From positions 1-64,000 of the IMG/VR virus record IMGVR_UViG_3300042945_001299: a stretch of 64,000 nucleotides of DNA; one strand, 5' to 3'. The position numbers and the translations under genes were made by a program. Within the stretch, counting starts at the first letter, position 1. Each line of letters opens with the position of its first letter. This document shows, one piece after another, positions 762 to 29,366 of this stretch. The notes under the pieces are model-generated. The model was not told where the DNA came from. It made no database searches and saw only the letters and a program-made list of their open reading frames with translations. The stretch comes from a virus.

Positions 762-762
762 T

Positions 763-3850: not shown

Positions 3851-4062
3851 TGTGGCAAGATGACGATCATCTGCATATCGACTACCGCCTTCGCGTTGCC
3901 ACCAAGCGCACGGACCTTCCCAAGGATGTCCTCATTCTGATTGGGGACGCATATGGGGAGATCATGGAACTTCAGAGGAAACTCAAGGAAACTCAAAAAG
4001 AACTCAGCAATTGCGCCATGGACAGGATTGCTAAGTTTGATGAGGAAAACGGGCTAGTATAA
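3847..4062 (+). CDS. Small hypothetical protein
   Basis: 71 residues, ATGA-coupled to the upstream gene. The middle contains a helical MELQRKLKETQKEL segment. A late promoter (TATAAATA at 4058) overlaps its stop codon and serves the next gene. Confidence 0.6.
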   Translation: MMWQDDDHLHIDYRLRVATKRTDLPKDVLILIGDAYGEIMELQRKLKETQKELSNCAMDRIAKFDEENGLV

Positions 4063-4065
4063 ATA
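4058..4065 (+). promoter_or_regulatory. T4-type late promoter (TATAAATA)
   Basis: Perfect match to the T4 late promoter consensus, 23 bases before the start of the capsid-tagged gene at 4089, which has AGGAGG in its leader. Confidence 0.75.
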
Positions 4066-4088: not shown

Positions 4089-4622
4089 ATGAAGTCATAT
4101 AGAGAGTTCATTTCAGAGGCAGCAAGGCGTTCCCTTTCCCGTCTACATGGTCACATCGAAGGTGGTCACATGGTGGGTTTCATATCAGCAAGCCGTGGGA
4201 ATCTTTCTCCCGCTGAGAACAACAAGAGGACGAAGGCACTCAGGGCAAGCCTCAAGCAGCATGGATACACTCCTGTTCCAGTCAAGGGCGAGTACATCGA
4301 AGACCACAATGGAGAGAAGAAGAAGGTGAAGGAGAAGACCTTCATGGTTCATTCTGGTCAACTTCCCGCACCCAAACGGGGTAGCGTAGGAGATCATGCT
4401 ACTCTTCTTAGGGATCTCAAGAAGCATGGGGAGCAGTTTGGTCAAGACACCGTTCTCTCTGTTTCCAAGAAGCACGGCAGCGTGTTCCACGGAACTGGCA
4501 AGTCGGATTGGGTTCCGAAGGGAAAGAGAGCGCGTATCGGTGGTGCTGGCATCAGCACCAATGTTGGCGACTTCAACACGCGGTTGAAGGGCAAGAAGTT
4601 CATAGTAGGTGGAGGTGCATGA
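4089..4622 (+). CDS. Capsid-tagged protein, probable internal head cargo
   Basis: 177 residues. It begins MKSYREFISEA, the same pattern as the T4 internal-protein capsid-targeting sequence and as four genes at 21.7-23.1 kb. Phe-Ile-Ser-Glu|Ala fits the (Leu/Ile)-x-Glu cleavage rule of the T4 gp21 prohead protease. The body is basic and Gly/Lys/His-rich, with VPKGKRARIGGAGISTNVGDFNTR near the end in two pieces. Driven by a perfect late promoter and AGGAGG. Body fold not recognised; packaging is inferred from the tag. Confidence 0.7.
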   Translation: MKSYREFISEAARRSLSRLHGHIEGGHMVGFISASRGNLSPAENNKRTKALRASLKQHGYTPVPVKGEYIEDHNGEKKKVKEKTFMVHSGQLPAPKRGSVGDHATLLRDLKKHGEQFGQDTVLSVSKKHGSVFHGTGKSDWVPKGKRARIGGAGISTNVGDFNTRLKGKKFIVGGGA

Positions 4623-11491: not shown

Positions 11492-11546
11492 GTGAGTGCG
11501 TAGTCTGTCTTTCCGAGAACACGAAAACAAACAAAGGAAACTCGCA

Positions 11547-12309: not shown

Positions 12310-12316
12310 ATGGACT

Positions 12317-12389: not shown

Positions 12390-12419
12390 TTTGAGAAAAC
12401 TCACAGAAGGAAACACACA

Positions 12420-15580: not shown

Positions 15581-15617
15581 AATCTTGCCCGTATTTCATT
15601 CCCTACGCTCAAGTGGG

Positions 15618-15646
15618 TTGTCCTAAGTGCCGATGTAATGTATACT
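15618..15646 (+). promoter_or_regulatory. Sigma70-like promoter
   Basis: TTGTCC at 15618 and TATACT at 15641 with a 17-base spacer. The predicted start is one or two bases before the ATG at 15655, as at the CobS-like gene. Confidence 0.55.
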
Positions 15647-15654
15647 TACAGCAT

Positions 15655-18150
15655 ATGGCTACTACCATGAACACCGCAAACACCGCTCGCAATTCCATCA
15701 TGGCGCGTCTGCTCGCGTCGGAGAACCTCACCGTCGAACACTCGCATGAGTGCGAGACTGCCTACTTCGAACTCGACTCGCGTCGGCTTGTTCTGCCGCA
15801 GTGGGACAACAAGGACCAGAGCGTCTATGACTTCCTTGTCGGCCATGAGGTCGGCCATGCCAAGTACACTCCTGCCGATGCGTGGAAGGAAGCCAGCATC
15901 CGCATCGGCGGCACCAAGAATGCCATGGTCGCGAAGGACTACATCAATGTGATCGAAGACGCTCGCATTGAGCGCATGATCAAGCGCGAGTTTCCTGGTC
16001 TTCGCCGCGACTTCATCAACGGCTACCAGGCCCTCAGCACCATGGATGCCTTCAACCTCAAGGGTCGCGACCTCGCTTCCCTCTCGACCATCGACCGCCT
16101 GAACATCCACTTCAAGATGGGCATCCACCTTGGCGTTCAGGTTCCCTTCAGCGCGGAGGAGATGAAGTTCGTGGACGCGATCAACGCGGCGCGTACCTTC
16201 GATGATGTCACCGCCATCGCTGCCGAGGTCTACGAGTTCGCGAAGAACCAGAAGCGCGAGCGCGAGGAGGAGCAGGGCGAGGGAAGCCGCACCAACCAGA
16301 CCAAGAGCGACGGCAAGCAGCAGAGCGGTTCGGCTTCGTCCGAGCAGGACGGCGACAACGGCGAGGAGAAGCGCGAAGGTGCTGCTTCCCGCGAGGACGG
16401 CAACGACAAGACCGATTCGTCCGAGACTCGCGAAGCGGGTGCCGAGGACAAGAGCGAGCGTAGCGACGAGCAGGGCAACGGCGAGCGCGAGGATTCGTCC
16501 AGTGGCAACGACGGCGACGAATCGGCTCAGGACGATGGCTCGACTGCCGAAGCCTCAGACGAGACCGATGGCGGCAAGGAAGAGGTCGAGGCGCAGCAGT
16601 ACGCTCCCGATGCGGCTTCGACCGTTGGCGAGATGGAGAAGGCCATGAAGAAGTTCGTCAACAACCAGGTTGTCGAACACGCCATCCGCGTCCCGCAGAT
16701 CGACACTTCGAAGATCGTCGTGAGCAGCGACGAGTTCATCGACCTGATGAACCAGAGCGTTCCGTCGAAGTACCACAAGATCACGGGCAGCGTGTCGGAA
16801 CACCTCGACAAGGCGGCAGCGGAAGCCTTCAAGGAACTCGTCGCGGAGAACCGTCGTGCGGTCGACCAGATGTGCCGTCGCTTCGAAGTGCGTCGTGCGG
16901 CTCGCAACTACGCTCGCGAGTCGAGCGCGAAGACGGGTCGCATCTCCTGCCGCAACCTTGCCAAGTACAAGTTCAGCGAGGACATCTTTGAGCGCATGAC
17001 CATCAAGCGCGACGAGAAGAACCACGGCATCGTGATCCTCCTCGACTGGTCGGGTTCGATGAGCGTCATGCTCAACGACACCGTGAGCCAACTCGCGGCT
17101 CTCCTGATGTTCTGCCGTCGCGTCGGAATCCCTGCCGAGGTCTACTTCTTCAACAGCATGTACAGCAAGTTCGCGGATGACCTCTTCGCGAAGAACAACA
17201 AGCATTTCCCTGCGGATCAGGACGGCAAGAAGCCGACCCGCGCCGACGCGCTTCGCTACGGTGGATCGTCCCGCGTGAATTGGTGTGCGCTTGACGAGCG
17301 TCGCCTCTTCACCGAGCATGTCTGCAACCTCCCCGCTGGCACCGTTGCGAAGGGATACACGGCAACCTTTGAGGCGTTCAGCCTTGTTCAGGTCTACAAC
17401 CAGAACATGGACAACAAGAAGTTCGCGCGGGTGATGGGTCGCCTCTCGCTCCTCGCCAAGATGGTCAGCGGTCGCTACTCTCAGGTCGAGTGCGTTGACT
17501 CGCTGATGCTTGGCACGACCCCGCTTGACGAGTCGATCCTTGCCATGCGTGACATCGTCAACAACTTCCGAAAGTCCAGCAACACCAAGGTGACCTTCAT
17601 CACCCTCACCGATGGCGAAGGCATGAGCGTCATCAACCGCGTCAACACTCCTGAGGATCTCAGCAAGAGCAAGAACACCGGTGGTCACTACCGCCATGTC
17701 TCCAAGGTGATGATCGATGCCGCCAACGGTCGCCGTCATACGGGTCACGGCAACACCGCGGTGGTCAACATGTTCAAGGATGCCACGGGATGCGATGTGG
17801 TCGGCATCATGATGATGCAGAGCCTCTCGTACTGCTCGACCTTTGATCGTCTCGCGACTGCCGACAAGGACGATTACACCACCCGCTTGGAGAAGACGAA
17901 GGTCCTCCGTGAGAAGTTCGATGCCGAGAAGTTCGTCGCGATCAACAACCCGAATTCGGGATACGCTTCCTACTTCTTCGTCCAGGTGCAGGATCGCCGT
18001 CGCGCCGAGGAGATCGCGAAGAACGAGGATGCGAAGTTTGAGAAGTTGAAGAACAGGAAGGTCGCTGCGACCCGTGCCTTCATCGCTGCCATGAAGCGCG
18101 ACGAGACGAACCGCATGTTCATCAACCGCCTCATGGACATCGTCGCCTGA
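15655..18150 (+). CDS. CobT-like protein: metallopeptidase-like domain plus VWA domain
   Basis: 831 residues. Residues 20-190 carry a zincin motif HEVGH (64-68) and a downstream NVIEDARIER (about 100), as in CobT-type and phage VWA-peptidase proteins. A long acidic, low-complexity linker covers about 198-325. The C-terminal VWA domain has a MIDAS motif DWSGSMS (about 463-469) and TLTDGEG (about 645). CobT is the VWA partner of the CobS ATPase in cobaltochelatase, and the CobS-like gene at 8777 shares its promoter layout. A third subunit (CobN) is not in the window. A general AAA+/VWA remodelling machine is the alternative. Start chosen at the first ATG after the -10 box; no ribosome binding site is seen. 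Confidence 0.8.
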   Translation: MATTMNTANTARNSIMARLLASENLTVEHSHECETAYFELDSRRLVLPQWDNKDQSVYDFLVGHEVGHAKYTPADAWKEASIRIGGTKNAMVAKDYINVIEDARIERMIKREFPGLRRDFINGYQALSTMDAFNLKGRDLASLSTIDRLNIHFKMGIHLGVQVPFSAEEMKFVDAINAARTFDDVTAIAAEVYEFAKNQKREREEEQGEGSRTNQTKSDGKQQSGSASSEQDGDNGEEKREGAASREDGNDKTDSSETREAGAEDKSERSDEQGNGEREDSSSGNDGDESAQDDGSTAEASDETDGGKEEVEAQQYAPDAASTVGEMEKAMKKFVNNQVVEHAIRVPQIDTSKIVVSSDEFIDLMNQSVPSKYHKITGSVSEHLDKAAAEAFKELVAENRRAVDQMCRRFEVRRAARNYARESSAKTGRISCRNLAKYKFSEDIFERMTIKRDEKNHGIVILLDWSGSMSVMLNDTVSQLAALLMFCRRVGIPAEVYFFNSMYSKFADDLFAKNNKHFPADQDGKKPTRADALRYGGSSRVNWCALDERRLFTEHVCNLPAGTVAKGYTATFEAFSLVQVYNQNMDNKKFARVMGRLSLLAKMVSGRYSQVECVDSLMLGTTPLDESILAMRDIVNNFRKSSNTKVTFITLTDGEGMSVINRVNTPEDLSKSKNTGGHYRHVSKVMIDAANGRRHTGHGNTAVVNMFKDATGCDVVGIMMMQSLSYCSTFDRLATADKDDYTTRLEKTKVLREKFDAEKFVAINNPNSGYASYFFVQVQDRRRAEEIAKNEDAKFEKLKNRKVAATRAFIAAMKRDETNRMFINRLMDIVA

Positions 18151-18170
18151 ACCAAAGGAGGAAACCCACA

Positions 18171-18488
18171 ATGACCATCGCAACCCACCTCACCGAAGAC
18201 GAACAGGCAATCGAATCCCACTGGCTCACCAAGGGGGATCAGGGGCTGCTCTTCCTGATCATCGAAAACAAGGATTACGAAACCCCTCTCATCATGATGG
18301 CCGCGTATACGAAGTACGAAGATGGCTATTCATACGATGGGCCGAAGCAAGTCCGACTTCTAGGAAACCGCATGGTGACCACTGGTCTAAGCACCAGATG
18401 GAATCTGGAACAGGCAAGGGTGATGTGGCGACTCTTCCTTTCGGATGGATGGAAGTACGAAGAGGAATGGGCAAAGATTCCTAGATAG
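18171..18488 (+). CDS. Small hypothetical protein
   Basis: 105 residues. Leader AAAGGAGGAAACCCACAATG, the strongest ribosome binding site of the early leader set, 20 bases after the CobT-like gene, so the two are cotranscribed. Trp-rich C-terminus. Not recognised. Confidence 0.65.
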   Translation: MTIATHLTEDEQAIESHWLTKGDQGLLFLIIENKDYETPLIMMAAYTKYEDGYSYDGPKQVRLLGNRMVTTGLSTRWNLEQARVMWRLFLSDGWKYEEEWAKIPR

Positions 18489-18521
18489 AACTAGGAGGGG
18501 AAATGAGATGAGGAATACGCC

Positions 18522-18977
18522 ATGATTCGTACACTCAGCAACTCAAGCCCCGAAGCGAAGAACTTCCTAAAGTTCATTCGTCACGACCTCCAAACTCATA
18601 GAGTGCATCTCAAGTTCTCCAAGGGTAGATCCGTCAGGTTCAACAATGTACACTCCGCAGCGGGGTACTTCGAAGAACCGAGAGGATCCCAATGGGGCAT
18701 CATCAGAGTAGGAACGGGTAATAGAAAACCCATCAATGTTCTGACGAATCTCATACATGAGTATTGCCATTTCCTTCAATGGAAGAACGGGGATTCGATT
18801 TGGAAGAAACTCCATGACGGCGAATCCATCGAAGGGGAATCCTATGTCACCCTAGAGGAACACACCGAACGGGATTCCCTCAGACTCATACGAGAGTGGC
18901 ACCTACCCGTCAATCATTCTGCCATTCGTAAAAGATCCCGTGCATACATCGCATACCTCCGTCAGGAATCGAAATAG
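18522..18977 (+). CDS. Zincin-like metallopeptidase
   Basis: 151 residues. The motif HEYCH (His79, Glu80, His83) lies in a helix after a β region, and LEEHTERD (about 112-119) could supply the third ligand. No signal peptide or capsid tag. It resembles compact SprT/ImmA-type zincins found in phages. Substrate unknown. It follows the CobT-like operon. Confidence 0.65.
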   Translation: MIRTLSNSSPEAKNFLKFIRHDLQTHRVHLKFSKGRSVRFNNVHSAAGYFEEPRGSQWGIIRVGTGNRKPINVLTNLIHEYCHFLQWKNGDSIWKKLHDGESIEGESYVTLEEHTERDSLRLIREWHLPVNHSAIRKRSRAYIAYLRQESK

Positions 18978-19003
18978 ATACCTGACAGGAGGATTTTTTC
19001 ATC

Positions 19004-19294
19004 ATGCCAACCTATGACTACCGATGTTCCCGTTGCGATCACTCATTCGAACTTTTCCAATCCATTTCGAATCGTGATACCCCATGCTCCCATCCATGTC
19101 CCCATTGTGGTGTCTCTGAATCCATTCAAAGGGATTGGATCGGATCACCCGCAGCAGCAGTGGATATGAACCTGACCCCCGGTGCAGATTTCAAAGAGGT
19201 CATGAAGAAGGTCTCCAAGGGCGTTCCCAAACGATTCAGAGAGAACCTCGACCAAGCCGCATCTCGTCGTGGCACCGTATGGGGTAATGGCTGA
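19004..19294 (+). CDS. FmdB-type zinc ribbon protein
   Basis: 96 residues. MPTYDYRCSRCDHSFELFQS, then CSHPCPHCG, forms the two-knuckle ribbon of the FmdB/regulatory zinc ribbon family, known in bacteria and in T4-like phages. The C-terminal half is basic and helical. AGGAGG precedes the ATG. Possibly a transcription- or protein-binding adaptor. Confidence 0.75.
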   Translation: MPTYDYRCSRCDHSFELFQSISNRDTPCSHPCPHCGVSESIQRDWIGSPAAAVDMNLTPGADFKEVMKKVSKGVPKRFRENLDQAASRRGTVWGNG

Positions 19295-19389
19295 TTTCAC
19301 GGTCAACCCATATTTTTTCTACATATAAAGGTATTTGTAAACCTATAAACCCACATCAACTACCTAAACTTTCATAAGGAGATGGAAAA

Positions 19390-19686
19390 ATGAGATACTC
19401 AGAAGCACGACAGATCTTGGCAGAGGCAGCACTTCTTGAACTTGGTCTATTGGATGAAGACTATACCACACCAGGACGAGATTTAGAGAACCGCAGGGCA
19501 ATCAACACCGCATTTGCAAGGCGTCAGAACGCTGATCGCGAATTGATGCGAGACGATAGGGAGCGAGCATCACCCAACCTCATTGGCAAGGGTGGCAAGA
19601 AGGTGAAGTTGCGAAAGGGTGTGGCATACAGGAACATCAATGTTGCTGGTCAAGAGACGAAAAGGGTTCTCAAACCAAAGAACTAA
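19390..19686 (+). CDS. Capsid-tagged small basic protein
   Basis: 98 residues starting MRYSEARQILAEA, with Ile-Leu-Ala-Glu|Ala matching the prohead protease rule. The first 72 bases are nearly identical to those of the gene at 19768, so the tag was duplicated recently. The body is basic and Arg/Asn-rich, ending in KRVLKPKN. Likely internal head protein; function of the body unknown. Confidence 0.65.
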   Translation: MRYSEARQILAEAALLELGLLDEDYTTPGRDLENRRAINTAFARRQNADRELMRDDRERASPNLIGKGGKKVKLRKGVAYRNINVAGQETKRVLKPKN

Positions 19687-19704
19687 GAAAAGAAGAAACT
19701 CACC

Positions 19705-19734
19705 GTTCCATTTGGTGGGAACATCAAATGGAAC
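19705..19734 (+). terminator. Perfect inverted repeat, possible terminator
   Basis: GTTCCATTTG and CAAATGGAAC, 10-base perfect arms with a 10-base loop, between two tagged genes. It lacks a T-run, so attenuation or RNA processing is as likely as termination. Confidence 0.5.
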
Positions 19735-19767
19735 TTTCACTTTCAACACTTTAAGGGAACTAGGACA

Positions 19768-20349
19768 ATGAGATACACAGAAGCACGAAAGATCTTGGCA
19801 GAGGCAGCACTTCGTGAACTTGGTCTATTGAACGAAGAACCCGTCCTTGACTACGGGGATTCTAAGCATTATCCAGAGTCTGCTCATGGAACCAAGCGCA
19901 TGGGCAAGGTCGGTCCATACGAGATACGACACCGAGGGGCCAAGAGTGGTTATGGAATAGTCCACATCATGCACAATGGCGAATCGGTTGGTCATGTTCC
20001 ATACAACAAGCACAAGAAGCAAATCATCCCGCGTGGTCCTTCCTTGCATCCAAGCCACAGGGGAAAGAAGGCATTGGTGCGAGGGCTGATGGCAAAGACA
20101 TACATGATGTTGGCAGACAAGACGGGACACACGATAAGAAGCGATGACGCACAGACAAAGGGTGGTCGCCACATCTGGCGGCAACTCGCGGCAAAGAAGA
20201 GGGTGAAGTTTGCAGAGGAGCAATGGGGCAAGAAGCCCAAGATGCAGCAATACGATCCCGAACAGCATGAGAAACTGGCATATGGTCGAAGGACAGGATA
20301 CAAGCACCACCTGTACTTGCACCCAAGGAAAACAACAGCAAAGGCATAG
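19768..20349 (+). CDS. Capsid-tagged GNAT-like acetyltransferase
   Basis: 193 residues starting MRYTEARKILAEA. The body has the end-game of a GNAT fold: GYGIVHIMHNGESVGHV (β4), then SLHPSHRGKKALVRGLMAKTYMM, whose Arg-Gly-Lys-Lys-Ala lies in the acetyl-CoA loop, then SDDAQTKGGRHIWRQL, like the S-x-x-x-Q-x-x-G-x-x-x-W ending of the other two GNAT-like domains in this cassette. It is probably packaged in the head and delivered with the DNA to acetylate a host target. Substrate unknown. Confidence 0.65.
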   Translation: MRYTEARKILAEAALRELGLLNEEPVLDYGDSKHYPESAHGTKRMGKVGPYEIRHRGAKSGYGIVHIMHNGESVGHVPYNKHKKQIIPRGPSLHPSHRGKKALVRGLMAKTYMMLADKTGHTIRSDDAQTKGGRHIWRQLAAKKRVKFAEEQWGKKPKMQQYDPEQHEKLAYGRRTGYKHHLYLHPRKTTAKA

Positions 20350-20353
20350 AGAC

Positions 20354-21694
20354 ATGAGCAACCAATTCCTAAACCACCTAAACTCAATCACACCTCAGGG
20401 TAGAGCCAAGGATACATCCATCTTTGTTCCCGCGAAGGACATCAGCGAAGCCGTTCCCGATGTCGGACAGAACCTCAAGGGGATGCCAAGGAAGGCAGCA
20501 AGAAAACTTGCACATGCATCCCGCAACTGGAGAGAGGGTAGCGGAAGCCTCAAGGACTATGAAGCCGCAAGGGAGCGTTGGGGCAAGAAGATGAGCAGCA
20601 ATGCCAAGCGGTATGGAAAGAAACTCGACCGCGCACTTGGAGACTTCTCCGCAAGGACAGGCATTCCACTCAAGGAAGCAGTCTCGACCAATGATCCAAA
20701 TCGTGGTCGTTCGGGGAGAGCAAAGCCCATACTTCCACCAGGACAGGATCCATACGACAAGTACACCAAGGGTGAGATCAAGAGTTTCTCTGGCAAACTA
20801 CAGAAGAGACTTCGTGGCTTGAGTCCAGAGGGCAGACAAAGGTACTATCGCGAGGTTGGAATGCGTTCCCGTGCCGCATCACGCGCTGGCAAGACTGGGC
20901 GTTTGTTTCCAATGACGGAAGCCCCCAAGTATGCACAGTATGCCATTCCCGCAGTTCCTGAACTTCTCATGCTCACCTATAGCAACAAGCACAAGCGAGA
21001 TGCTGATGGGTTGAAGAAGTTCGTCGGTAAGGGTAGGAAGAATCCAATACCAGTATATGAAGGTGCAGTGAAGGCATCCATGGAAGATTGGTTGTATGAT
21101 CTTCCAAAGGGTGCAATCCGTGAACTCAAGGCAAAGCACGGCAAGATACTTGCCCGTACTGGTGGACATGCTAAGGGAATCGGGGGAATCGGGGCGAAGA
21201 ATTCAGCGAAACTTCATCAAAGCATTCAGGGTATTCTTCAAAAGCATAATGTTCCTAAACTGATGGGTTCACATGCGGAAGGTTCCAATGCCATTCAGAT
21301 GTCTTTCCACACATACCACGGCAATCTTCATGAGCAGAAGGAAGTCGATGATGAGGGTGGAATGGCAATGGGTGAACTCAAGTCCATCATTGCAAATGCC
21401 AACGACATCATGTCGATGCTCAAGTCTGATTCCCAACTTGAGGGATGGGTTCAGTCCAAGATCACGAAATCAGCAGATTACATTTCTTCGGTGAAAGACT
21501 ACCTTTCCAATACTCCAAATTCGATATCCGAAGAAGAGGAAAAGGAAGAGGAAAAGAGAGAATCGACCAAGAGCATGATTGCCCGTTTGGTTGCCCGTCG
21601 CCACAAGAGGATTGGCATGGCAGTTCCAAAGAATGTCCTTCGTGACATTGAGAAGGAACACAAGAACGAGAAGGACGATTACGAGGACGATTGA
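20354..21694 (+). CDS. Large basic head-cargo candidate
   Basis: 446 residues. The N-terminal 35 (MSNQFLNHLNSITPQGRAKD, then TSIFVPAKDISEA) match the 82-residue protein at 26648 closely and end in Ile-Ser-Glu|Ala, a protease-type site. The body is Lys/Arg-rich and helical, with an acidic tail (EEEEKEEEK, EKDDYEDD). No domain recognised. Start at 20354, four bases after the previous stop. Confidence 0.65.
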   Translation: MSNQFLNHLNSITPQGRAKDTSIFVPAKDISEAVPDVGQNLKGMPRKAARKLAHASRNWREGSGSLKDYEAARERWGKKMSSNAKRYGKKLDRALGDFSARTGIPLKEAVSTNDPNRGRSGRAKPILPPGQDPYDKYTKGEIKSFSGKLQKRLRGLSPEGRQRYYREVGMRSRAASRAGKTGRLFPMTEAPKYAQYAIPAVPELLMLTYSNKHKRDADGLKKFVGKGRKNPIPVYEGAVKASMEDWLYDLPKGAIRELKAKHGKILARTGGHAKGIGGIGAKNSAKLHQSIQGILQKHNVPKLMGSHAEGSNAIQMSFHTYHGNLHEQKEVDDEGGMAMGELKSIIANANDIMSMLKSDSQLEGWVQSKITKSADYISSVKDYLSNTPNSISEEEEKEEEKRESTKSMIARLVARRHKRIGMAVPKNVLRDIEKEHKNEKDDYEDD

Positions 21695-21696
21695 AC

Positions 21697-22011
21697 ATGA
21701 AGTCATTCAGTCAGTTTCTCACTGAAGCATCTTCCAATGAAAGATATGTGAAGATCAAGCAATCTGGTCATGGTGCGAACATTCGCAAGATCAATGACAC
21801 CACATCCATGTTCTCGCATCGTGGCATCGTCGGTCATGTGGTCAAGGGATGGAGTCGCATGGGTGGTTGGGGATATCAGGCAGGGAACATTCGTGTGAAT
21901 GGTAAGGACATTGGTCTAAATACCATACATGGAACTCATAAGACGATGAATGATGCCATTCATAATGCATATATGCATACTGCACACCACATGGCAAAGG
22001 GAAATAAATGA
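21697..22011 (+). CDS. Capsid-tagged small protein
   Basis: 104 residues starting MKSFSQFLTEA (Leu-Thr-Glu|Ala). The body is basic with Gly/His/Trp (GHVVKGWSRMGGWGYQ). It begins one base after the previous stop and ends in an ATGA overlap. Probably an injected internal protein. Confidence 0.65.
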   Translation: MKSFSQFLTEASSNERYVKIKQSGHGANIRKINDTTSMFSHRGIVGHVVKGWSRMGGWGYQAGNIRVNGKDIGLNTIHGTHKTMNDAIHNAYMHTAHHMAKGNK

Positions 22012-22694
22012 AGACCTATCGCCAACTACTTGAGGACATACAACTAGAACCAAATATTAGTAGATTAAACCGCAAAGACTGGAAAGGTATTCATGATGAG
22101 TTCCATTCGGATATTGAAGCCGCGCGAAGCCTTCCTTCGCTTCGTATGCATAAACTTGGTAAGATTCATAAAGAATATTCTATCCATCGAAACCACAATG
22201 GTAATGACTTCTTCATAACCCACGATAAAAGCAAGAAAGTGGTTGGACACATAGAAAATGATCATGTGAGTGATAATCCGGAAACGAGTAAGCACTTGCG
22301 GGTAGGATTTCTAGCCATCCACCCGCATCATTCGAAGAAGAAGATAGGGCATTCGCTTGCCGTGGCAGCATACAAGCATCTTCATGGAAAGCACGGCTAT
22401 ACCATTCATAGCGGCATTCAACAGAGTATGGGTGGTGCATCAGTATGGCAGCACCTGATGAAGGATCCCAAGACCAAGAAGCATGTCCGTGCGGTCGTTA
22501 GTAGAAAAGGGGATGGAGACATAAAGGACATCGGACAGGCATCCAAGATGAATCCCGCTGACATATGGACTTCTGGTAGTGGGGGAGTCAGACGCAAGGC
22601 AGCATCCAAGGGAATCCGAATGCACGATTATTCGTCGCCCAAGGCAACCAGGGCATTTGGAACTCAACTCATACTCAAGGCAAAGAAGAAATGA
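22008..22694 (+). CDS. Tagged GNAT-like acetyltransferase
   Basis: 228 residues starting MKTYRQLLEDIQLE, a diverged form of the tag. The core has FLAIHPHHSKKKIGHSLAVA (acetyl-CoA loop His-His-x-Lys-Lys-Lys-Ile-Gly) and SGIQQSMGGASVWQHL, matching the C-terminal domain of the gene at 23986 (LQSPGGASVW). Coupled by ATGA to both neighbours. Confidence 0.65.
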   Translation: MKTYRQLLEDIQLEPNISRLNRKDWKGIHDEFHSDIEAARSLPSLRMHKLGKIHKEYSIHRNHNGNDFFITHDKSKKVVGHIENDHVSDNPETSKHLRVGFLAIHPHHSKKKIGHSLAVAAYKHLHGKHGYTIHSGIQQSMGGASVWQHLMKDPKTKKHVRAVVSRKGDGDIKDIGQASKMNPADIWTSGSGGVRRKAASKGIRMHDYSSPKATRAFGTQLILKAKKK

Positions 22695-23059
22695 AGTCAT
22701 TCAATCGTTTCATCGCAGAGGCAAACGAGCAGACGATTCAAAACTTCGTTGACTTTGCCGCACAGGAACTTGGTCTTGCAAACACACCGAATGTTCGTTT
22801 GGTTCAGGTGCGTGAGAATGGCATGACCACGGCATCGTATTGTCCAGCAGACAAGAGCATTCGTGTTGTGAGTGGCAACAGAGCCACATTCGACATCTGC
22901 CGTTCCATTGCACACGAACTCGTCCATCAGATGCAGGATGAATGTGGTGATGAACTCGACGGAGACACGGGATCACCATGCGAGGACGAAGCCAATGCAC
23001 TCGCTGGTCGTCTTATTCGGTTGTATGGCGGAAGCAACGAAGGCTTCTACGAGGAATAA
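22691..23059 (+). CDS. Capsid-tagged zincin metallopeptidase
   Basis: 122 residues starting MKSFNRFIAEA (Ile-Ala-Glu|Ala). The active site is HELVH (His75, Glu76, His79) and CEDEANALAGRL near residue 97 could give the third zinc ligand, as in small zincins. Packaging with the genome would place a protease in the host at the moment of injection. ATGA-coupled to the GNAT gene. Substrate unknown. Confidence 0.75.
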   Translation: MKSFNRFIAEANEQTIQNFVDFAAQELGLANTPNVRLVQVRENGMTTASYCPADKSIRVVSGNRATFDICRSIAHELVHQMQDECGDELDGDTGSPCEDEANALAGRLIRLYGGSNEGFYEE

Positions 23060-23062
23060 TAC

Positions 23063-23869
23063 ATGAAGACTTACAGGGAGTTCATAGTCGAGGCAACGGC
23101 AGTCAGGATGATTGCCCGTGCATATCCAAAGCACTTCATTCATGATGGACATGGAAACGAACTCAATGAGAACTGGTCGTATGCACATGACTTCCATGAG
23201 ATGCCTAACTCAGAAAAGCAGAAGTATGTCTACCATGCGACCACAGCCGCAAGAGCCGCGAAGATCGTCAAGGGTGGACTCAAGCCACGAAGTCCAAAGG
23301 GACGCACCAACTACCCAAGCCAGAAGGAACACACGCAGGGACACGCATTCGTGACCAACCATCATGGCGTAGGGTATTGGGTGGATCAGACAGCCCATGC
23401 AGTCAATCGCCGCAAGCATGAGGTTGGTGAGCGCGACTACGAAAACATTCATGTTGTGAAGTTCCCAATCGCAAATCTCAGCAAGTCCGCACGAAGAAAG
23501 TTCAAGTCTGACGATCTTGGAACCAAGGACTCGCGAAAGCACAGCGACTATGCCCGTGATCCGATCATAGATCCCTCGACGCATGAAGCACCATCCGCAT
23601 TCAAGGTTCGAAAGAAGATTCAAGAAGCATACGGTAGCAAAGCCAAGGATGGGTGGATTCATAGCCGTGGACTAGGTCATCGCAGATGGGTGAAGGGAAA
23701 TCATTCCATTGAAAAGCAAGGCAAACGAGGTTGGACAGTCTATGATTGGCAGAGAAGCAAGGAACTTCATGTTGCCAAGACTGCCAAGGAAGCAAAAGCA
23801 TGGTCAAATGCAAACCGATCAAGTCATTCAAAGATGGAACCAATCGAAATCAAACCGTGGACGGTTTGA
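23063..23869 (+). CDS. Capsid-tagged ADP-ribosyltransferase-like protein
   Basis: 268 residues starting MKTYREFIVEA (Ile-Val-Glu|Ala). Residues 55-115 have YVYHATTAARAAKIVKGGLKP then GHAFVTNHHGVGYW. The order Tyr-His-x-Thr/Ser ... Ile-x-x-x-Gly-Leu ... aromatic strand resembles the NAD-binding core of H-Y-E type ADP-ribosyltransferases. T4 packages the transferase Alt in its head, so an analogous injected enzyme is attractive. The catalytic Glu is not certain and the C-terminal 90 residues are a basic extension. Confidence 0.5.
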   Translation: MKTYREFIVEATAVRMIARAYPKHFIHDGHGNELNENWSYAHDFHEMPNSEKQKYVYHATTAARAAKIVKGGLKPRSPKGRTNYPSQKEHTQGHAFVTNHHGVGYWVDQTAHAVNRRKHEVGERDYENIHVVKFPIANLSKSARRKFKSDDLGTKDSRKHSDYARDPIIDPSTHEAPSAFKVRKKIQEAYGSKAKDGWIHSRGLGHRRWVKGNHSIEKQGKRGWTVYDWQRSKELHVAKTAKEAKAWSNANRSSHSKMEPIEIKPWTV

Positions 23870-23940
23870 TAGGTGGATTCGATACTGCCGAATGGTGGTA
23901 TATGTCGGAACACGAAGAAGACTAACCCAGTCAGACGCAC

Positions 23941-23973
23941 AGGTGGGGGACACGATCCCCCACCTTGTTTTTT
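23941..23973 (+). terminator. Strong intrinsic terminator
   Basis: AGGTGGGGGA and TCCCCCACCT form a perfect 10-base stem with a 5-base loop followed by TGTTTTTT. A late promoter box starts immediately after. Confidence 0.9.
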
Positions 23974-23980
23974 CTAAATA
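23974..23980 (+). promoter_or_regulatory. Late promoter box (CTAAATA) abutting a start codon
   Basis: The box ends 6 bases before the ATG at 23986. By T4 geometry the RNA would start at about the ATG, giving a leaderless mRNA. Confidence 0.65.
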
Positions 23981-23985
23981 TCATT

Positions 23986-25380
23986 ATGAAAACAATACAC
24001 ATAGTTCCCATTGATGAAGCAAGCAAGCCCAAGCCATCTGGCAAGGCATTCCTCCTTCCTGGCTCCTACAGCCCATACACCGTTGGACACCATGAGATGG
24101 CAAGGCAAGCCGCTGCACATGCTGCCTCGACGGGTCATACGCACTTCTACCATGGCATCGGTGCCGCATCGAAGCAATCGGCAGATGATCCGTTGACGCA
24201 TGGACAAAAGCGTTCCGTCATTCGTTCTGGTCACAGGAACATTGCCAAGGAACACAAGGGAATGCAGTTTCGCACAACCGAAAAGGAACATGTGAGTCCA
24301 TTCCATCAACTGGCGCATCTCGCAAGACAGGGACACAAGCACATCACCATCGGTCTTGGATCGGATCAGATGAAAAAAGGTGGTGTCAAGACCGCAATAG
24401 AGGGGCATGTGAAGAAGTACGGTGGAATATTGGACAAGGATGGCAAGGTTCACAAGGCAACGGTGAGTTTCCATCAGATGGGTGCAGAGAGGCATGAAGG
24501 AGATATGCGAAGGCACGAAGTCCTTGCAAGGCTTCGCAAGGGAGACATGAGCGTGGCAAAGGCAGGAAGGCTTCGCAAGGCAGTTGCATCTGGCGACACA
24601 GAACTCGCCCATGAACTCATGCCAAAGCACATCAACAAGCCGAAGTACTTTAGCCTGATACAGAAGCAACAGGCACGGGTAGCAAAGCCAAAGAAGAAGG
24701 CACTCGTCAAGGAAGGATACATGTCGTTCCTTGATTTCATTGGGGAGGACATTGAGATTGCAAATGTCCTTGAAAAGCCGAGAGGTGGATTGCTCAGTGC
24801 AAGAAACTTCGCAAAGACCGTGGAGAGAACAGGCAATCCCACGAAGAGATCGGGAAGAGTAGCCAAGGGATACACACTCCATACAAGCACACACAAGGAC
24901 GATCCAAAGGTTCAGACTCACTACATCGTCCATGATCAGACTGGTCATGTCGCGGGTGAGGTGTCCACGGTGTCCCATGGAGACGAGCATCAAGTCATTC
25001 ATACGGAAGTTCATGGATTGCACACAAGAAAGAAAATCGGTAAGTCCCTTGCGGCACTCGCATACAAGCACATTGCCAAGAAGAAGGGAAACCTTTGGAG
25101 CAGTGGATTGCAAAGCCCTGGTGGCGCATCCGTGTGGAACAGGCTCCGCAAGGATCCAAAGATGAAGGGTAGAGTCTTCCACCACACCGCGAAGGGGGAA
25201 GTTCCCGCACATGATGTTCCCGAAAAGCGCATATGGGCAAGCGATACATTGCCACACGAACCGAAAGTCGCAAAGAGCAAGGGAACTCCATCATTTTTAC
25301 CCACGACCAGAGAAAGTGATCCTGAACATAGGCGGGTTCTTGGTTCACGGCTCGTCATCCGACCTTTGCGGAAATCATAA
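23986..25380 (+). CDS. Two-domain protein: nucleotidyltransferase-like plus GNAT-like
   Basis: 464 residues. The N-terminus MKTIHIVPIDEA ends in Ile-Asp-Glu|Ala, a tag variant. Domain 1 (about 20-230) begins FLLPGSYSPYTVGHHEM, the HIGH-like motif (Thr-x-Gly-His) of cytidylyl/nicotinamide-nucleotide transferase folds, with IGLGSDQMKKGG downstream. Domain 2 (about 255-464) is a GNAT-like fold with VHGLHTRKKIGKSLAALAYK and SGLQSPGGASVWNRL, paralogous to the protein at 22008. YMSFLDFIGEDIEIANV near 247 looks like a second internal tag and cleavage site, so the two domains may be separated in the capsid. No ribosome binding site; probably leaderless. Confidence 0.7.
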   Translation: MKTIHIVPIDEASKPKPSGKAFLLPGSYSPYTVGHHEMARQAAAHAASTGHTHFYHGIGAASKQSADDPLTHGQKRSVIRSGHRNIAKEHKGMQFRTTEKEHVSPFHQLAHLARQGHKHITIGLGSDQMKKGGVKTAIEGHVKKYGGILDKDGKVHKATVSFHQMGAERHEGDMRRHEVLARLRKGDMSVAKAGRLRKAVASGDTELAHELMPKHINKPKYFSLIQKQQARVAKPKKKALVKEGYMSFLDFIGEDIEIANVLEKPRGGLLSARNFAKTVERTGNPTKRSGRVAKGYTLHTSTHKDDPKVQTHYIVHDQTGHVAGEVSTVSHGDEHQVIHTEVHGLHTRKKIGKSLAALAYKHIAKKKGNLWSSGLQSPGGASVWNRLRKDPKMKGRVFHHTAKGEVPAHDVPEKRIWASDTLPHEPKVAKSKGTPSFLPTTRESDPEHRRVLGSRLVIRPLRKS

Positions 25381-25383
25381 ATA
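25376..25383 (+). promoter_or_regulatory. Late promoter (CATAAATA)
   Basis: Overlaps the upstream stop codon, 37 bases before the gene at 25421. Confidence 0.65.
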
Positions 25384-25420
25384 ATAGAAGCGTTCTAAAA
25401 TAGGCAAATAAGGAAGAAGC

Positions 25421-26635
25421 ATGAACTCACCAAATCTACAGCAGAGGCTCTATCTCGCCAAGGCACTCAACGAGAATACCGATACACTTTTCGATCATCC
25501 TGAGATGAACGAGGCTCGTCGTAGAGGAGTGCCTTTCTCCAAGACAGAAGCACAACTTAGAAGAGAAAACATGGCTGCTGGAAAGGCTTGGCTTGCAAAG
25601 AAGGGCAAAAAGGCTCCTTTAGACAAGAACGCCGAAAAGAAGCAGGAAGAGACGAACGAAGAGTCCATCTCTGAAGGCGTGAAGAGAATGCGTAGGCTTC
25701 GCCGCGCACATGTGAGTGGAAAGGCTTCTCGCGAAACCGCCGATGCATATGACAAGGAACTTTCCAAGTTGTCTGCAAGCCGTCTTCGTCGTGGTGGAGC
25801 AAGAAAGCAGACAATTCGTGGCTTCTTCACCGACAAGCCCACCACACCAGCAGCAGACAAGGCATATGAAAGATTCAGCAAGGGTGCCATGGATAAGGCA
25901 AATGCCAAGGGCAAGAAGATCTTCGAAGATGTGGATCTTGATGAGGGTTCCTATGTCCACTCAAAGGGTGAACTCAAGAAGGCAATCAAGGGATCGAAAC
26001 GCGAGATCGTCAAGGCAGTAAAGAAGGGCGACAAGGAAGAAGCAAAGTTCTGGATGCAGAACAAGAAGGATGCAGAGGAGCAACTCAAGGAAGCAACTCG
26101 CTCCAAGTATCTCAAGGTATATGGCAAGCACAAGGTCGGCTCTGATGAGAGCAAAGCATTGAACTTGGCAAGACTCAAGCGGGAGGTGGCTATGCTTCAG
26201 CGCGGTGGTGCCGATGCAGAGACGATGAAGAAAGCCGCTGCTGCCCAAGGGCGATTCAATCGCAATGAGCCGCGCGATCCAACATATAATCCACATGATG
26301 CTTCAATGGCAACATATCGCTTTGCAAGAAAGGCAACGAGAAGCAGGGAGGATGGCAAGAAGTCTCCTCGTAAAGTCAATGAAGCAACTCGCTCCAAGGT
26401 AGGAAAAGCCTATCGTAAGTTTGGACACGGACCAGAATACGATCTAGCAGACTTGAAAAGAAAAGTCGCTACCCTTCGCCGTGGTGGTGCTTCCAATGAA
26501 ATACTCAAAAGTTACCCTGCGATCCATGCGCGAGGCGGTTATCACGACAAGGCAGAGATCACGACTGCAAGACAGAATTTCATGGCTCGCGGAATGCGAA
26601 AGCGAGATCAAGGCATAAAGTCTCCACGAAACTAA
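25421..26635 (+). CDS. Basic repeat protein, probable internal head protein
   Basis: 404 residues, Lys/Arg/Ala-rich and helical. Two copies of a unit of about 55 residues, KEATRSKYLKVYGKHKVGS and NEATRSKVGKAYRKFGHGP, each continue into an LKRxVAxLxRGGA segment (about 215-275 and 320-370). Several (Leu/Ile)-x-Glu sites (SISEG, VDLDEG) could be cut by the prohead protease. Resembles DNA-binding core proteins of T4-like heads by composition only. Confidence 0.65.
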   Translation: MNSPNLQQRLYLAKALNENTDTLFDHPEMNEARRRGVPFSKTEAQLRRENMAAGKAWLAKKGKKAPLDKNAEKKQEETNEESISEGVKRMRRLRRAHVSGKASRETADAYDKELSKLSASRLRRGGARKQTIRGFFTDKPTTPAADKAYERFSKGAMDKANAKGKKIFEDVDLDEGSYVHSKGELKKAIKGSKREIVKAVKKGDKEEAKFWMQNKKDAEEQLKEATRSKYLKVYGKHKVGSDESKALNLARLKREVAMLQRGGADAETMKKAAAAQGRFNRNEPRDPTYNPHDASMATYRFARKATRSREDGKKSPRKVNEATRSKVGKAYRKFGHGPEYDLADLKRKVATLRRGGASNEILKSYPAIHARGGYHDKAEITTARQNFMARGMRKRDQGIKSPRN

Positions 26636-26647
26636 GAAAGAACCAAC

Positions 26648-26896
26648 ATGAACAATCAGTTCCTACAACACCTCAACTCCATCACTCCACAGGGCAGGGC
26701 AAAGGATACAAACATCTTTGTTCCCGCCGAGGACATTCAGGAAGTAAGAAAGCCAAACGAAAAGGATGCAAAGAAGTTGCTTCGCAAGTTGAAGAAGGCT
26801 GGCCGTGCCGTGAAGCGCGTGGTTGGCGGCGTCGTGAACACACTTGGCACTCCACAAGACAACACCGATTACATGATCACAGGTAGAAAGTTCTAA
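26648..26896 (+). CDS. Small protein sharing the NNQFLQHLNSI tag
   Basis: 82 residues. The first 35 nearly match the start of the 446-residue protein at 20354, including RAKDTNIFVPAEDI. The rest is a short basic helix (KDAKKLLRKLKKAGRAVKRV). A second tag type for head targeting is a reasonable inference. Confidence 0.65.
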   Translation: MNNQFLQHLNSITPQGRAKDTNIFVPAEDIQEVRKPNEKDAKKLLRKLKKAGRAVKRVVGGVVNTLGTPQDNTDYMITGRKF

Positions 26897-26908
26897 AAGG
26901 AAATACAA

Positions 26909-28120
26909 ATGCGTACAAGAGATATCAAGGCACTCAACGAGACAATCGCATCTGTGGTCGATCCAGTGGATGCTGACCGCGCAAAGGCTCTCCAAGAGGG
27001 CTACCTCAACTCCCTCACAGAGAAGGCTCGTCAGATCTGCGAGGAGACAATCGAAGAGAAGGCAGCACCTGGCATGGAGGATTGGGCATCCGATCCCAAG
27101 GTCAAGGCATCCTTCAAGAAGCAATACGGCAAGAGGTGGAAGGAAGTCATGTATGCACGATCCTGGAACCTTGCCAAGAAGGAGAAGGAGTTGGGTGTGA
27201 ATGAGGAAGTTGAAGAACTGGACGAGTTGAACAAGAAGACTCTTGGTTCCTACATCAACAAGTCAATGAAAGATTATGGTGAGTTGTCTGCTTACAACCA
27301 GATGGTGGGATCGGGCCTTTCAGATGAAGCAGAACGAAAGATGAAAAATAGAAAGCGCGGAGTCAAGCGTGCTACCGCTATTCTAACCAAAGAAGATGTT
27401 GGGCTTGCAGAGGGAGTCAGTGCAAAGCGTATGCGAATCATTCGCAAGCACAATGTTTCAGGGAAGCCCATCAAAGGCGAAGTCGCAGACTTCATGCAGC
27501 GTTCCTTCAAGAAGAAGTTCTACAAGGACAAGGAAAAGTTTGGTGGAGCAACATCGGCAGTTCTTGGAAGAGCCGCACTCAAGCACTCTGCTATGAAGGC
27601 AAAGGGTCTTGCTGAAGCCGAGCAGTTGGATGAGGCTGGCTACAAGAAGTTGATGCGCCTCAGAGGTAAGGCATATGACACAGGAAATCCAAAGGTCGCA
27701 AGAGCAGCAGCGGAACTCCAATCCAAGGTTGCTGCAAGAATGGCAATGAAGGGTGGAGCATCTGCCGAGGCAGTCAAGGGTGGCGGAAGTCTCATAGGCA
27801 AGAGTGGAAAGTACACTCAGAAGGCAGGAAACCTTGCCAATCAGCGCAGCAAAGCCATCGCATCATTCCGCAACCTGAATATCGATAGGGGAGTGGCAAG
27901 AGACACAGGTTCTGGTTCGGTCGAGGCAATGGCAAATCGCTTGCAGGGCAAGAAGCCAAAGATGACAAAGAGCCAGATTTCCAAGAAGCGCGAGGCTCAG
28001 GCAGCAATGCGTGATTTCAGAAACCGCGCTCGTAGCGGCGACTTCGGACAGAACAACCAAGAGGGTATGCGTCCACTCTATAACTATCTAAAGAGAACTG
28101 GTAAACTCAAGACCAAGTAA
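26909..28120 (+). CDS. Basic helical protein with ELDELNKKTLGSYI motif
   Basis: 403 residues. EEVEELDELNKKTLGSYINK (about 95-114) is a motif seen in several head-associated proteins of T4-like phages. Many prohead-protease-like sites (ALNET, GLAEG, GLAEAEQLDEAG) divide it into basic segments. An internal core or DNA-binding head protein that is processed during maturation is likely. Confidence 0.65.
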   Translation: MRTRDIKALNETIASVVDPVDADRAKALQEGYLNSLTEKARQICEETIEEKAAPGMEDWASDPKVKASFKKQYGKRWKEVMYARSWNLAKKEKELGVNEEVEELDELNKKTLGSYINKSMKDYGELSAYNQMVGSGLSDEAERKMKNRKRGVKRATAILTKEDVGLAEGVSAKRMRIIRKHNVSGKPIKGEVADFMQRSFKKKFYKDKEKFGGATSAVLGRAALKHSAMKAKGLAEAEQLDEAGYKKLMRLRGKAYDTGNPKVARAAAELQSKVAARMAMKGGASAEAVKGGGSLIGKSGKYTQKAGNLANQRSKAIASFRNLNIDRGVARDTGSGSVEAMANRLQGKKPKMTKSQISKKREAQAAMRDFRNRARSGDFGQNNQEGMRPLYNYLKRTGKLKTK

Positions 28121-28134
28121 AAGGGGACTATATC

Positions 28135-28269
28135 ATGGCAAAAGTGAAGACACCAGCAAGACCAAGAATCCGTGACCTCAAGCATCAGATCTTCGTGAAG
28201 AGTCTGAACCGAAAGAAGAACCTTGAGGGTTGCAATTCAAGAAATGCTAAATATTCAAACAAGTGTTGA
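28135..28269 (+). CDS. 44-residue basic protein
   Basis: The ATG at 28135 has AAAGGGGA upstream and opens a Lys/Arg-rich frame (KVKTPARPRIRDLKHQ) ending in Cys. A late promoter box overlaps its 3' end. Too short to classify. Confidence 0.5.
   Translation: MAKVKTPARPRIRDLKHQIFVKSLNRKKNLEGCNSRNAKYSNKC
28247..28253 (+). promoter_or_regulatory. Late promoter box (CTAAATA)
   Basis: 73 bases before the gene at 28326, overlapping the preceding small gene. Confidence 0.5.
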
Positions 28270-28325
28270 TATTCTAGAACCTATCAGCACATTCATAAAG
28301 TTTCGAAACTACGAAAGGTAAGAAC

Positions 28326-29279
28326 ATGGCAATCAACCGCGACGGCTACGCATCACTAATCGAATCTGTCCAAGAGGCAGTTTCCACATCAACAGCAGGA
28401 ACCGCAACAGATGGTTCTGGCACATCTGGAATTCAATGGGGACATTCATCAATCGGTGGTGCAATGAATGCCATGCAGTTGGCTCAATGGCTTGCATCTC
28501 AGATGGGTGGTGGAAAGCCAAGTCCAAACGCATTCACTACTGCTGCCAAGAGCGGTGGTCGCGGCAACTTTGCCTCATCCAACAGAACAAGCGTCAAGGG
28601 TGGCAAGGGATCGTCTTCTGCTAAGGCATCTGTCGGAACAGCAGCCAAGAGGGGTGCGATCACAGAAGCCGACATTGAGGAAGCGTTGGCAATCCTTGAC
28701 GAAGCATCATGGAATACAGGTGAGTTCTCTGGCATGAAGAGTGGATATGACATAGCAAAGGCATTGAATGCTGGAAAGACATTCAGTGGAAGCAACACCC
28801 TTGGAAAGGGTCCAAAGGGTGGTCGCAAGACAAACCTAGGCTCTGGTCGTCCAACTGGCTCCAGTGCAACCTATGGAACCACAGGAACCAATGCAACTCG
28901 TCAAGAGGTTGCAGAGGCTGGTGCTGAGTATTGGAATCAAGGTAGATTCTCTGGCATGAAGAGTGGATACGACCTAGCAAGAGCATTGGGCAGCGGAACA
29001 TTTGGTTCTGGTGGTACTACAACCTCAAAGGCTCCAAAGAGTCGCAAGACAAACCTAGGCTCTGGTCGTCCAACTGGCTCCAGCGCAACCTATGGAACCA
29101 CAGGAACCAGTGCAACTCGTCAAGAGGTTGCAGAGGAAGAGGATTTTGACATCCTCGACGCGATCCTCGCAGAGGGAATCGAACTATATGGCGAAGAAGG
29201 TCTTGCAGAGATCCTTGCTGATTTCGCAGAGACTGGCGAGGTTTCAGACGAACTCGCACTTCTTCTCAGCGACGAATAA
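28326..29279 (+). CDS. Gly/Ser/Thr-rich repeat protein, probable head protein
   Basis: 317 residues. The N-terminus INRDGYASLIESVQEA has a Leu-Ile-Glu|Ser site. Two long repeats follow, each containing a FSGMKSGYDIAKAL-type segment and RKTNLGSGRPTGSSATYG, then TTGTNATRQEV. At DNA level about 87 bases are nearly identical between about 28830-28916 and 29050-29136. The tail is acidic and helical. Abundant virion protein likely. Confidence 0.65.
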   Translation: MAINRDGYASLIESVQEAVSTSTAGTATDGSGTSGIQWGHSSIGGAMNAMQLAQWLASQMGGGKPSPNAFTTAAKSGGRGNFASSNRTSVKGGKGSSSAKASVGTAAKRGAITEADIEEALAILDEASWNTGEFSGMKSGYDIAKALNAGKTFSGSNTLGKGPKGGRKTNLGSGRPTGSSATYGTTGTNATRQEVAEAGAEYWNQGRFSGMKSGYDLARALGSGTFGSGGTTTSKAPKSRKTNLGSGRPTGSSATYGTTGTSATRQEVAEEEDFDILDAILAEGIELYGEEGLAEILADFAETGEVSDELALLLSDE

Positions 29280-29308
29280 ACCTTAGGCTACAAGGTGGTA
29301 TGCACACG

Positions 29309-29338
29309 AAGGAGAGGGAAACCTCTCCTTTGTTGTTT
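29309..29338 (+). terminator. Intrinsic terminator
   Basis: AAGGAGAGG-GAAA-CCTCTCCTT, a perfect 9-base stem with a GNRA-type loop, then TGTTGTTT. A late promoter starts at 29339. Confidence 0.85.
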
Positions 29339-29346
29339 CATAAATA
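29339..29346 (+). promoter_or_regulatory. Late promoter (CATAAATA)
   Basis: Directly follows the terminator, 20 bases before the ATG at 29367, with CGGAGG between. Confidence 0.7.
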
Positions 29347-29366
29347 AATCGGAGGATTCATCTGAG

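Follow-up and report, generated by a model that had tools for sequence, protein, structure and literature searches.

What could be gained by a run of viral genes whose proteins start with much the same few residues and continue into widely different bodies? The locus that raises this question lies in a stretch of 64,000 bases, referred to here as the window, which comprises bases 1-64000 of the 81,457-base virus record IMGVR_UViG_3300042945_001299. An earlier note on this DNA had proposed that several genes, one at 4089 and the others between 19390 and 25380, carry tags like the capsid-targeting sequence (CTS) of phage T4 and form an injected arsenal of enzymes. The observation is real and was for the most part read correctly. 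In our view the locus probably codes for proteins carried as cargo in the head of a T4-like phage: enzymes that would be loaded by their tag, cut by a gp21-type protease and delivered with the DNA, with neighbouring cassette proteins using the same protease. Good support for a capsid-targeting tag shared by diverse cargo comes from the sequence, a control on T4, 47 clusters of tagged bodies, the head-gene cassette of a related record (G003) and virion proteomes; for the virus of the window we infer packaging, cleavage, injection and targets.

The canonical tag, MK[ST][FY]xxF[IL]xEA, opens four genes at the ATG given for each, all on the plus strand: a SAM (S-adenosylmethionine) lyase at 4089..4622 (MKSYREFISE/A, the slash marking a predicted cut or joint), a small basic protein at 21697..22011 (MKSFSQFLTE/A), a zincin metallopeptidase at 22691..23059 (MKSFNRFIAE/A) and a basic protein at 23063..23869 (MKTYREFIVE/A). 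A tag matrix trained on 113 distinct, independent heads from metagenomic virus contigs gives these four scores of 25.3-27.3 (27.3 for 4089, 25.3 for 21697 and 26.2 for 23063), while among the 2,758 start codons in the window (frames of at least 40 codons) the runner-up reaches -3.0, and the highest value in 16,613 internal windows is 3.7. None of the 607 starts scored in 63001-81457 of the record lies above -16.5. Searched with a DNA pattern anchored at the start codon, the 81-kb contig yields these four genes again, and nothing with the pattern reversed. Over ten phage records the pattern has 39 matches and, reversed, none; since nine of the ten (all but the window's own) were reached through the tag or a tagged gene, the 39 matches do not represent a prevalence.

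When the same heads were applied to T4 (bases 1-150000, 2,722 starts), with the background recomputed for T4, the matrix placed ipIII, ipII, gp61.1 and ipI in ranks 1 to 4. The third of these, gp61.1 (L153 18966-19130), is annotated as hypothetical and begins MKTFKEFIKED (score 16.0); it is thus a predicted T4 virion protein. Mutagenesis of the T4 CTS has assigned targeting to residues 4 and 7 and processing to residues 8 and 10 (PMC9026906). The tag features, as read from sequence, fit these rules: an aromatic residue at position 4, F7, I or L at 8 and E10 are found in 4089, 21697, 22691 and 23063, and E10 is kept in the heads of relatives of 21697, 22691 and 23063.

The heads of 19390, 19768, 22008 and 23986 do not follow this rule and are variants. 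The small basic protein at 19390..19686 (+; MRYSEARQILAE/A) and the GNAT-like protein at 19768..20349 (+; MRYTEARKILAE/A) have a different head in common, MRY[ST]EAR[QK]ILAEAAL, which also opens three tandem genes of locus L131 (4365, 4886 and 5605), two of which have bodies related to each other. Locus L130 has two heads of this type, one preceding units like those of the cassette protein at 20354. The GNAT-like protein at 22008..22694 (+) starts with MKTYRQLLE/DIQ and so lacks the EA; its LLE/DIQ aligns with an E/DI joint that precedes the GNAT-like units in 23986 and in the homologs of that gene. The fusion protein at 23986..25380 (+) begins MKTIHIVPIDE/A, with KIEE/A and IITE/A in relatives. 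Among homologs of 21697, that of L131 keeps the tag with ISE/S and that of L130 has a looser head, MMSFKDYLAE/G.

Turning to the bodies, 4089 is firmly assigned by its sequence as a SAM lyase, matching PF23780 (4.2e-14; 53.1 bits against a curated cut-off of 28), and its family profile matches the T3 SAM lyase 7ock (E=3.3e-4). In seven aligned members of this family the head is variable, and its end adjoins a conserved SLSR or SLAR, and the homolog of phage P-TIM68 keeps the tag MKTYKEFIQD. The proposal that 22691 is a zincin has held, and the predicted fold supports it: the HExxH residues and the downstream glutamate (E98) are invariant across 29 sequences, the AlphaFold model has a pLDDT of 90.1, and its Foldseek neighbours are abylysin, IrrE and selecase, with modest values (best PDB match E 1.2e-3, TM 0.52-0.59); against Pfam M78 it falls below the cut-off. 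There is good sequence evidence that 23986 begins with a cytidylyltransferase, as residues 14-223 match phrog_395 (PHROG 395, cytidylyltransferase) at 4.8e-8, with Pfam CTP_transf_like below its cut-off. Its second half has no Pfam match and resembles 22008 (E=1.2e-15), so of the nucleotidyltransferase-GNAT fusion described in the earlier note the first half stands and the second is GNAT-like. Similarly, 19768 resembles 22008 over 56 residues (E=1.7e-4) and the GNAT-like units of L130 and L131, and 22008 itself missed the Pfam cut-off for Acetyltransf_1 (E=0.0011, 19.7 bits against 20.7); we therefore label the units of all three genes GNAT-like. It follows that the bodies do not differ completely, as had been suggested, because these three have a unit in common, although the others among the eight show no match to each other at E<=1e-3.

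The protein encoded at 23063 has no sequence match in Pfam, NCBIfam or PDB, and its AlphaFold model, built on a three-sequence alignment, is too poor for a judgement of the fold (pLDDT 46.5). A profile match to other tagged proteins resembling ADP-ribosyltransferases was discounted because it is driven mainly by the tag; ADP-ribosyltransferase is thus a possible but unproven candidate label carried over from the earlier note. The basic character of the proteins was borne out, with pI values of 9.8-10.4 in 11 of the 13 computed, the acidic exceptions being 22691 (4.5) and the repeat protein at 28326 (5.0). PADLOC gave no match on eight proteins, and NCBIfam on ten proteins a single match far under its cut-off.

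The association of one tag with many bodies extends well beyond the window. In IMG/VR the pattern MKx[FY]xxFIxEA occurs in at least 120 stretches; of the 125 matches listed, 124 mark the start of a frame that has 50 codons or more or continues past the end of the locus. The 124 open reading frames (ORFs) of at least 45 codons were kept, the one dropped ending after 16 residues at a locus end. Compared by BLAST without the head, these 124 proteins fall into 47 body clusters, 35 of them singletons. Pfam recognises cytidylyltransferase (21), DUF5661 (5), DUF6321 (4), DUF6267 (3), AAA_33 (2), GNAT (2) and, once each, ExoX-like, zeta toxin, AAA_17 and AAA_18 domains; among the 25 of 53 PHROG families listed, 39 of the proteins match cytidyltransferase 395, 4 match internal head protein and 2 match internal virion protein. 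Instructive here are 50 loci related to the zincin of 22691: the four closest to it start with a tag or near-tag, one of these being the near-identical contig of the window. In two further loci a loose rule fits well away from the domain, and these were excluded from the count; by the same rule none of the others has a tagged start, and they comprise small proteins, domains within proteins of 501-1,432 residues and one incomplete locus. Since the zincin family occurs with the tag, without it and inside large proteins, these sequences fit a view in which a body can acquire or shed the tag as a detachable part. The idea of a modular cargo system is partly supported, in that the tag sits on diverse cargo, as indicated by the T4 control, the 47 clusters and the proteomes, and in the apparent gain and loss of the tag by zincins; the fully unrelated bodies that were part of the idea are not.

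Could the tag be an ordinary amphipathic N-terminal helix with no packaging role, common by chance or convergence? We regard this as very improbable, because the matrix puts the internal-protein genes of T4 first, the bodies behind the tag form 47 clusters, and the glutamate at position 10 that relatives of 21697, 22691 and 23063 keep would be needless for a mere helix. In favour of the helix are two tagged cyanophage genes missing from virion proteomes, to which we return below.

DUF6267, which by eye is found among the tagged proteins of loci L009, L051 and L070, is also spread over two adjacent overlapping genes of the window at 33201-34990 (minus strand; profile parts 3-165 and 198-362). 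The upstream gene of the pair starts MNQTYQNFMRQ, tag-like by eye, and the basic C-terminal tail of the downstream one matches a scaffold PHROG.

The gene at 23063 is present in four virus contigs, identical in L129 and 68-69% identical in the others, and one carrier, which has the same gene cluster, the 156.6-kb record G003, has gp20, gp21, gp22 and gp23 in T4 order: portal (PF07230, 2.8e-183), protease (PF03420, 5.4e-38), scaffold (PF25623, 9.4e-65) and major capsid protein (PF07068, 4.6e-135).

Evidence from virions comes from three cyanophages, S-CREM2, S-SCSM1 and S-SZBM1, where the tagged heads of virion enzymes are our own reading of the genomes. Virion preparations of S-CREM2 contained 52 of 219 ORFs (PMC10665884), and among these are a SAM hydrolase (ORF6, head MKDFDSFLEE; PF23780 2.3e-19), a cytidylyltransferase (ORF154, MKNFSSFLTEA; phrog_395 2.4e-59), a protein annotated as a kinase (ORF14, MKRFDAFLTEE; Pfam kinase below the cut-off) and ORF136 (MQTFSMFFSED). 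The link between 4089 and ORF6 rests on PF23780, on phrog_12788, which matches both, and on alignment; that between 23986 and the virion cytidylyltransferases of all three phages rests on phrog_395 (2.4e-59 to 1.2e-104). We wrote a rule, R1, as M..[FY]..F[ILVMF].[ED] and applied it to annotated genes, one unannotated antisense match in S-CREM2 being dropped before counting. Genes fitting R1 are virion proteins in 4/4 cases in S-CREM2, a share that depends on the rule because R1 was written after these heads were known, and in 1/2 in S-SCSM1. In S-SZBM1, the pre-registered held-out case, the sole R1 gene (SSZBM1_191) is outside the 30 virion proteins (0/1); the virion cytidylyltransferase of this phage, SSZBM1_140, begins MRFRQFIIEA, one residue too short for R1. 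Pooled over the three proteomes, 5/7 tagged genes are virion proteins against 127/719 overall (Fisher P=0.0025).

Some observations on the same cyanophages stand apart from these counts. A small tagged family with SESVNISGDFNGNLY after the head is found in two of them (L157 44215-44535; S-SZBM1 122311-122628) and is absent from both virion lists. ORF12 of S-CREM2 (L156 7704-10313), a virion protein with a Cas9-like annotation, matches nothing in Pfam at E<=0.01; preceded by a longer leader, its residues 19-26 read FASFMAEA, which resembles the tag. S-SZBM1_194 (L167 23252-25375) is a protein of 707 residues with a C-terminal SAM lyase domain at 567-675 and is outside the 30-protein virion list.

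Several results weigh against the cargo reading. Besides the dependence of the S-CREM2 share on R1 and the failure of the held-out case, the tagged ORF30 of S-SCSM1, by eye of the SSZBM1_191 family, is unmarked as a virion protein. Compared with cyanophages by tblastn (E<=1e-3), 4089 alone of the window's cargo and cassette genes has a match (P-TIM68 and S-SZBM1, not S-CREM2), and the other tagged and cassette genes have none in the three proteome phages. In phages of Microcystis, Alishewanella and Campylobacter the homologs of 4089 do without the canonical tag, and gp21 has no match in the 81-kb contig, which may be a fragment. The authors of the S-CREM2 study, moreover, left it open whether the enzymes are packaged or co-purified contaminants (PMC10665884), and if they are abundant lysate contaminants the proteomes lend packaging no support. 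We think this fairly improbable, since a CTS-like head in common is unexpected among contaminants and the excess of 5/7 over 127/719 speaks against it, although R1 had been written with the S-CREM2 heads in view.

The genes interspersed with and following the tagged ones provide a second strand of the argument. The earlier note had overlooked an N-terminal module common to 20354 and 26648, the recurrent protease motifs of 20354-28120 and a tag inside 23986. The cassette protein at 20354..21694 (+) has an N-terminal module ending MSNQFLNHLNSITPQGRAKDTSIFVPAKDISE/A, with later joints LKE/A and MTE/A, and this module is common to a short protein at 26648..26896 (+; IQE/V; 60% identity over 57 residues). 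Two basic cassette proteins consist of units, at 25421..26635 (+) after ISE/G, LDE/G, LKE/A and VNE/A, and at 26909..28120 (+) after IEE/K, LDE/L, LAE/G and LDE/A; an acidic repeat protein at 28326..29279 (+), which has homologs, has a head ending VQE/A. These five proteins and their homologs in L130 and L131 have common segments in varying order. For example, 20354 and an L131 protein both have a segment ending GKT(G/Q)RLFPMTE, after which one continues as APKYAQYAIPAV and the other as GVKRMRRLRSARF. In 15 proteins there are 61 [ILVMF]xE[AGS] motifs, against 20.0 in shuffles (sd 4.1, maximum 32 in 300). Sharp breakpoints of similarity (threshold 10) fall at the motif at 25/65 unique left-hand positions (8.5 expected) and 23/63 right-hand ones (8.0 expected), counts reached by 0/2,000 random draws; the sample of three viruses is small and homologous positions are dependent. 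We rely on these counts of unique positions. At threshold 5, which admits all strengths, left-hand breakpoints remain enriched (38/169, 21.7 expected), whereas right-hand ones do not (26/171, 21.5 expected, P=0.17), which tells against the joints, and left-hand breakpoints counted by either partner show no enrichment (42 against 36.9).

A tag is also found within a protein. Between the halves of 23986 stands VKE/GYMSFLDFIGE/DIE, with the tag GYMSFLDFIGE at residues 244-254, and the homologs have VKE/GYMSFAEFVSE/DIE (L131) and VKE/GFISFMEFIGE/AP (L130), each with a second GNAT-like unit after VSE/DIE or VRE/DIE. Such deep internal tags number 3 in the 21 proteins of the cassette and cargo set, against 0.03 in shuffles; as the three proteins are orthologs they count as one event, and an internal start is an unlikely explanation because the in-frame ATG within the tag is absent from L130. 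No embedded tag was found in the 124 tagged proteins or in 20 large zincin proteins. Tentatively, and with slightly more doubt than conviction, we suggest that prohead-protease sites serve as all-purpose joints in a payload able to evolve: cassettes bounded by [ILVM]xE/ (enzymes, DNA-binding peptides and tags) would be swapped between genes and viruses at these sites, packaged as strings and cut into separate effectors in the head; the internal tag of 23986 would then be a built-in targeting cassette.

Taken together, we propose the following mechanism for the cargo. The N-terminal segment, with its aromatic residue 4, F7, I/L8 and E10, would bind the assembling core of the prohead as the T4 CTS does, and a gp21-type protease would cut after the glutamate to free the enzyme inside the head. 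The enzymes would enter the host along with the DNA and act ahead of phage gene expression, the SAM lyase starving SAM-dependent restriction, which it could thus hit ahead of transcription, and the zincin, cytidylyltransferase and GNAT-like proteins modifying host proteins or metabolites. The neighbouring proteins would be strings of units cut apart by the same protease at [ILVM]xE/ sites, which may be the places where units are swapped between genes and viruses. It is unlikely, though less so than the helix or the contaminants, that the head is a segment binding scaffold or core and that the proteins serve head assembly alone, with no delivery of effectors. A head-assembly role has been suggested for T4 IPIII (PMC9026906), and the proteins at 25421 and 26909 are basic and repetitive with no enzyme match (26909 being scanned with PHROGs only). 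However, no role in assembly is evident for a SAM lyase, a zincin or a cytidylyltransferase, and T4 internal proteins act in the host (PMC9391042; PMC12373910).

From 19390 to 29927 all genes lie on a single strand, and neighbours overlap by 4 bases or sit at most 205 bases apart. The motif TATAAATA, which we take to be the T4 late-promoter motif, has three exact matches in the window (0.29 expected), one of them at 4058..4065 (+), with 23 bases between it and the ATG of 4089. Named phages gave no megablast match to 18000-28000 and nothing by tblastn for 23986 and 23063. In comparison with T4-like cyanophages (Kyanoviridae), CobS shows 44-55% identity, its CobT-like neighbour 26-40% and the gp32-like single-strand binding protein 42-53%; as these were compared with cyanophages alone among phage groups, the values indicate kinship with Kyanoviridae, not a placement. 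The CobS-like AAA ATPase and its large partner, CobT-like by eye and annotated as peptidase or midasin in cyanophages, lie at 8777-10048 and 15613-18150, and both have a match in 4/4 cyanophage records compared. Eleven tRNA genes lie in 51-12390, two of them (5587 and 12316) apart from the rest. In 63001-81457 of the record (L004), several consecutive genes on the minus strand, predicted to be of sugar-nucleotide and glycosyltransferase-like types, precede UvsX-like and PolB-like genes; all are labelled by eye.

How does this cargo compare with known systems? T4 Alt is an injected ADP-ribosyltransferase and, like the enzymes proposed here, a cargo of a T4-type head; it differs in that the ADP-ribosyltransferase identity of 23063 is unproven (pLDDT 46.5, match mostly tag). 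There is also a close likeness to T4 IPI, IPII and IPIII, small basic proteins with the CTS kind of head and diverse bodies behind one tag, and the adjacent ipII and ipIII genes resemble the cluster of the window. In T-even phages the internal proteins are diverse anti-restriction proteins with the CTS as their sole common part (PMC3012670). At least ten have been reported in T4 relatives, many recognised through this signal, and T4 Ip1 to Ip3 each block one type of GmrSD (PMC12373910); IPIII is required on strain ECOR17 (PMC9391042). It has also been reviewed that the CTS may be an evolutionary device by which T4-like phages package various proteins (PMC9026906). The predicted cargo of the window differs from the T4 internal proteins in its recognisable enzymes, its several head variants and its cassette neighbours with protease motifs.

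The virion enzymes of S-CREM2, S-SCSM1 and S-SZBM1 belong to the same SAM lyase and cytidylyltransferase families and have CTS-like heads; the difference is that the available passages of the cyanophage papers name no tag as the reason for packaging, and the tag offers such a reason for the SAM hydrolase, cytidylyltransferase and kinase of S-CREM2 that its authors left open. Polyvalent proteins (Iyer et al., 2017; PMC5512222) are likewise delivered multi-domain effectors with zincin, GNAT and ADP-ribosyltransferase domains. Their release by embedded metallopeptidases has been proposed, whereas the window has prohead-protease joints and the zincin as a separate tagged gene; by the polyvalent criterion of at least two effector domains per polypeptide, 23986 and its homologs are candidates, their GNAT-like part being below the cut-off. 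In the heads of SPN3US and phiKZ the prohead protease also removes targeting propeptides, and the identical N-termini of gp53 and gp54 recall a common tag, but several of these propeptides exceed 100 residues and the cut motif is another (PMC5694885).

The literature searched holds no account of the spread of the CTS in environmental viruses or of cassettes at protease sites, which is weak evidence of absence because it left out most subscription journals and preprints. The tag makes many hypothetical proteins of T4-like viruses predicted injected effectors that can be read from sequence, and recombination of cassettes at protease sites, if true, would be a modular way for phages to build delivered protein mixtures. 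Delivery by a tag was known for the internal proteins of T4; its scale, the enzymes and the cassettes are new here, including the predicted protein strings with breaks at prohead-protease motifs (20354-28120) and the putative internal tag.

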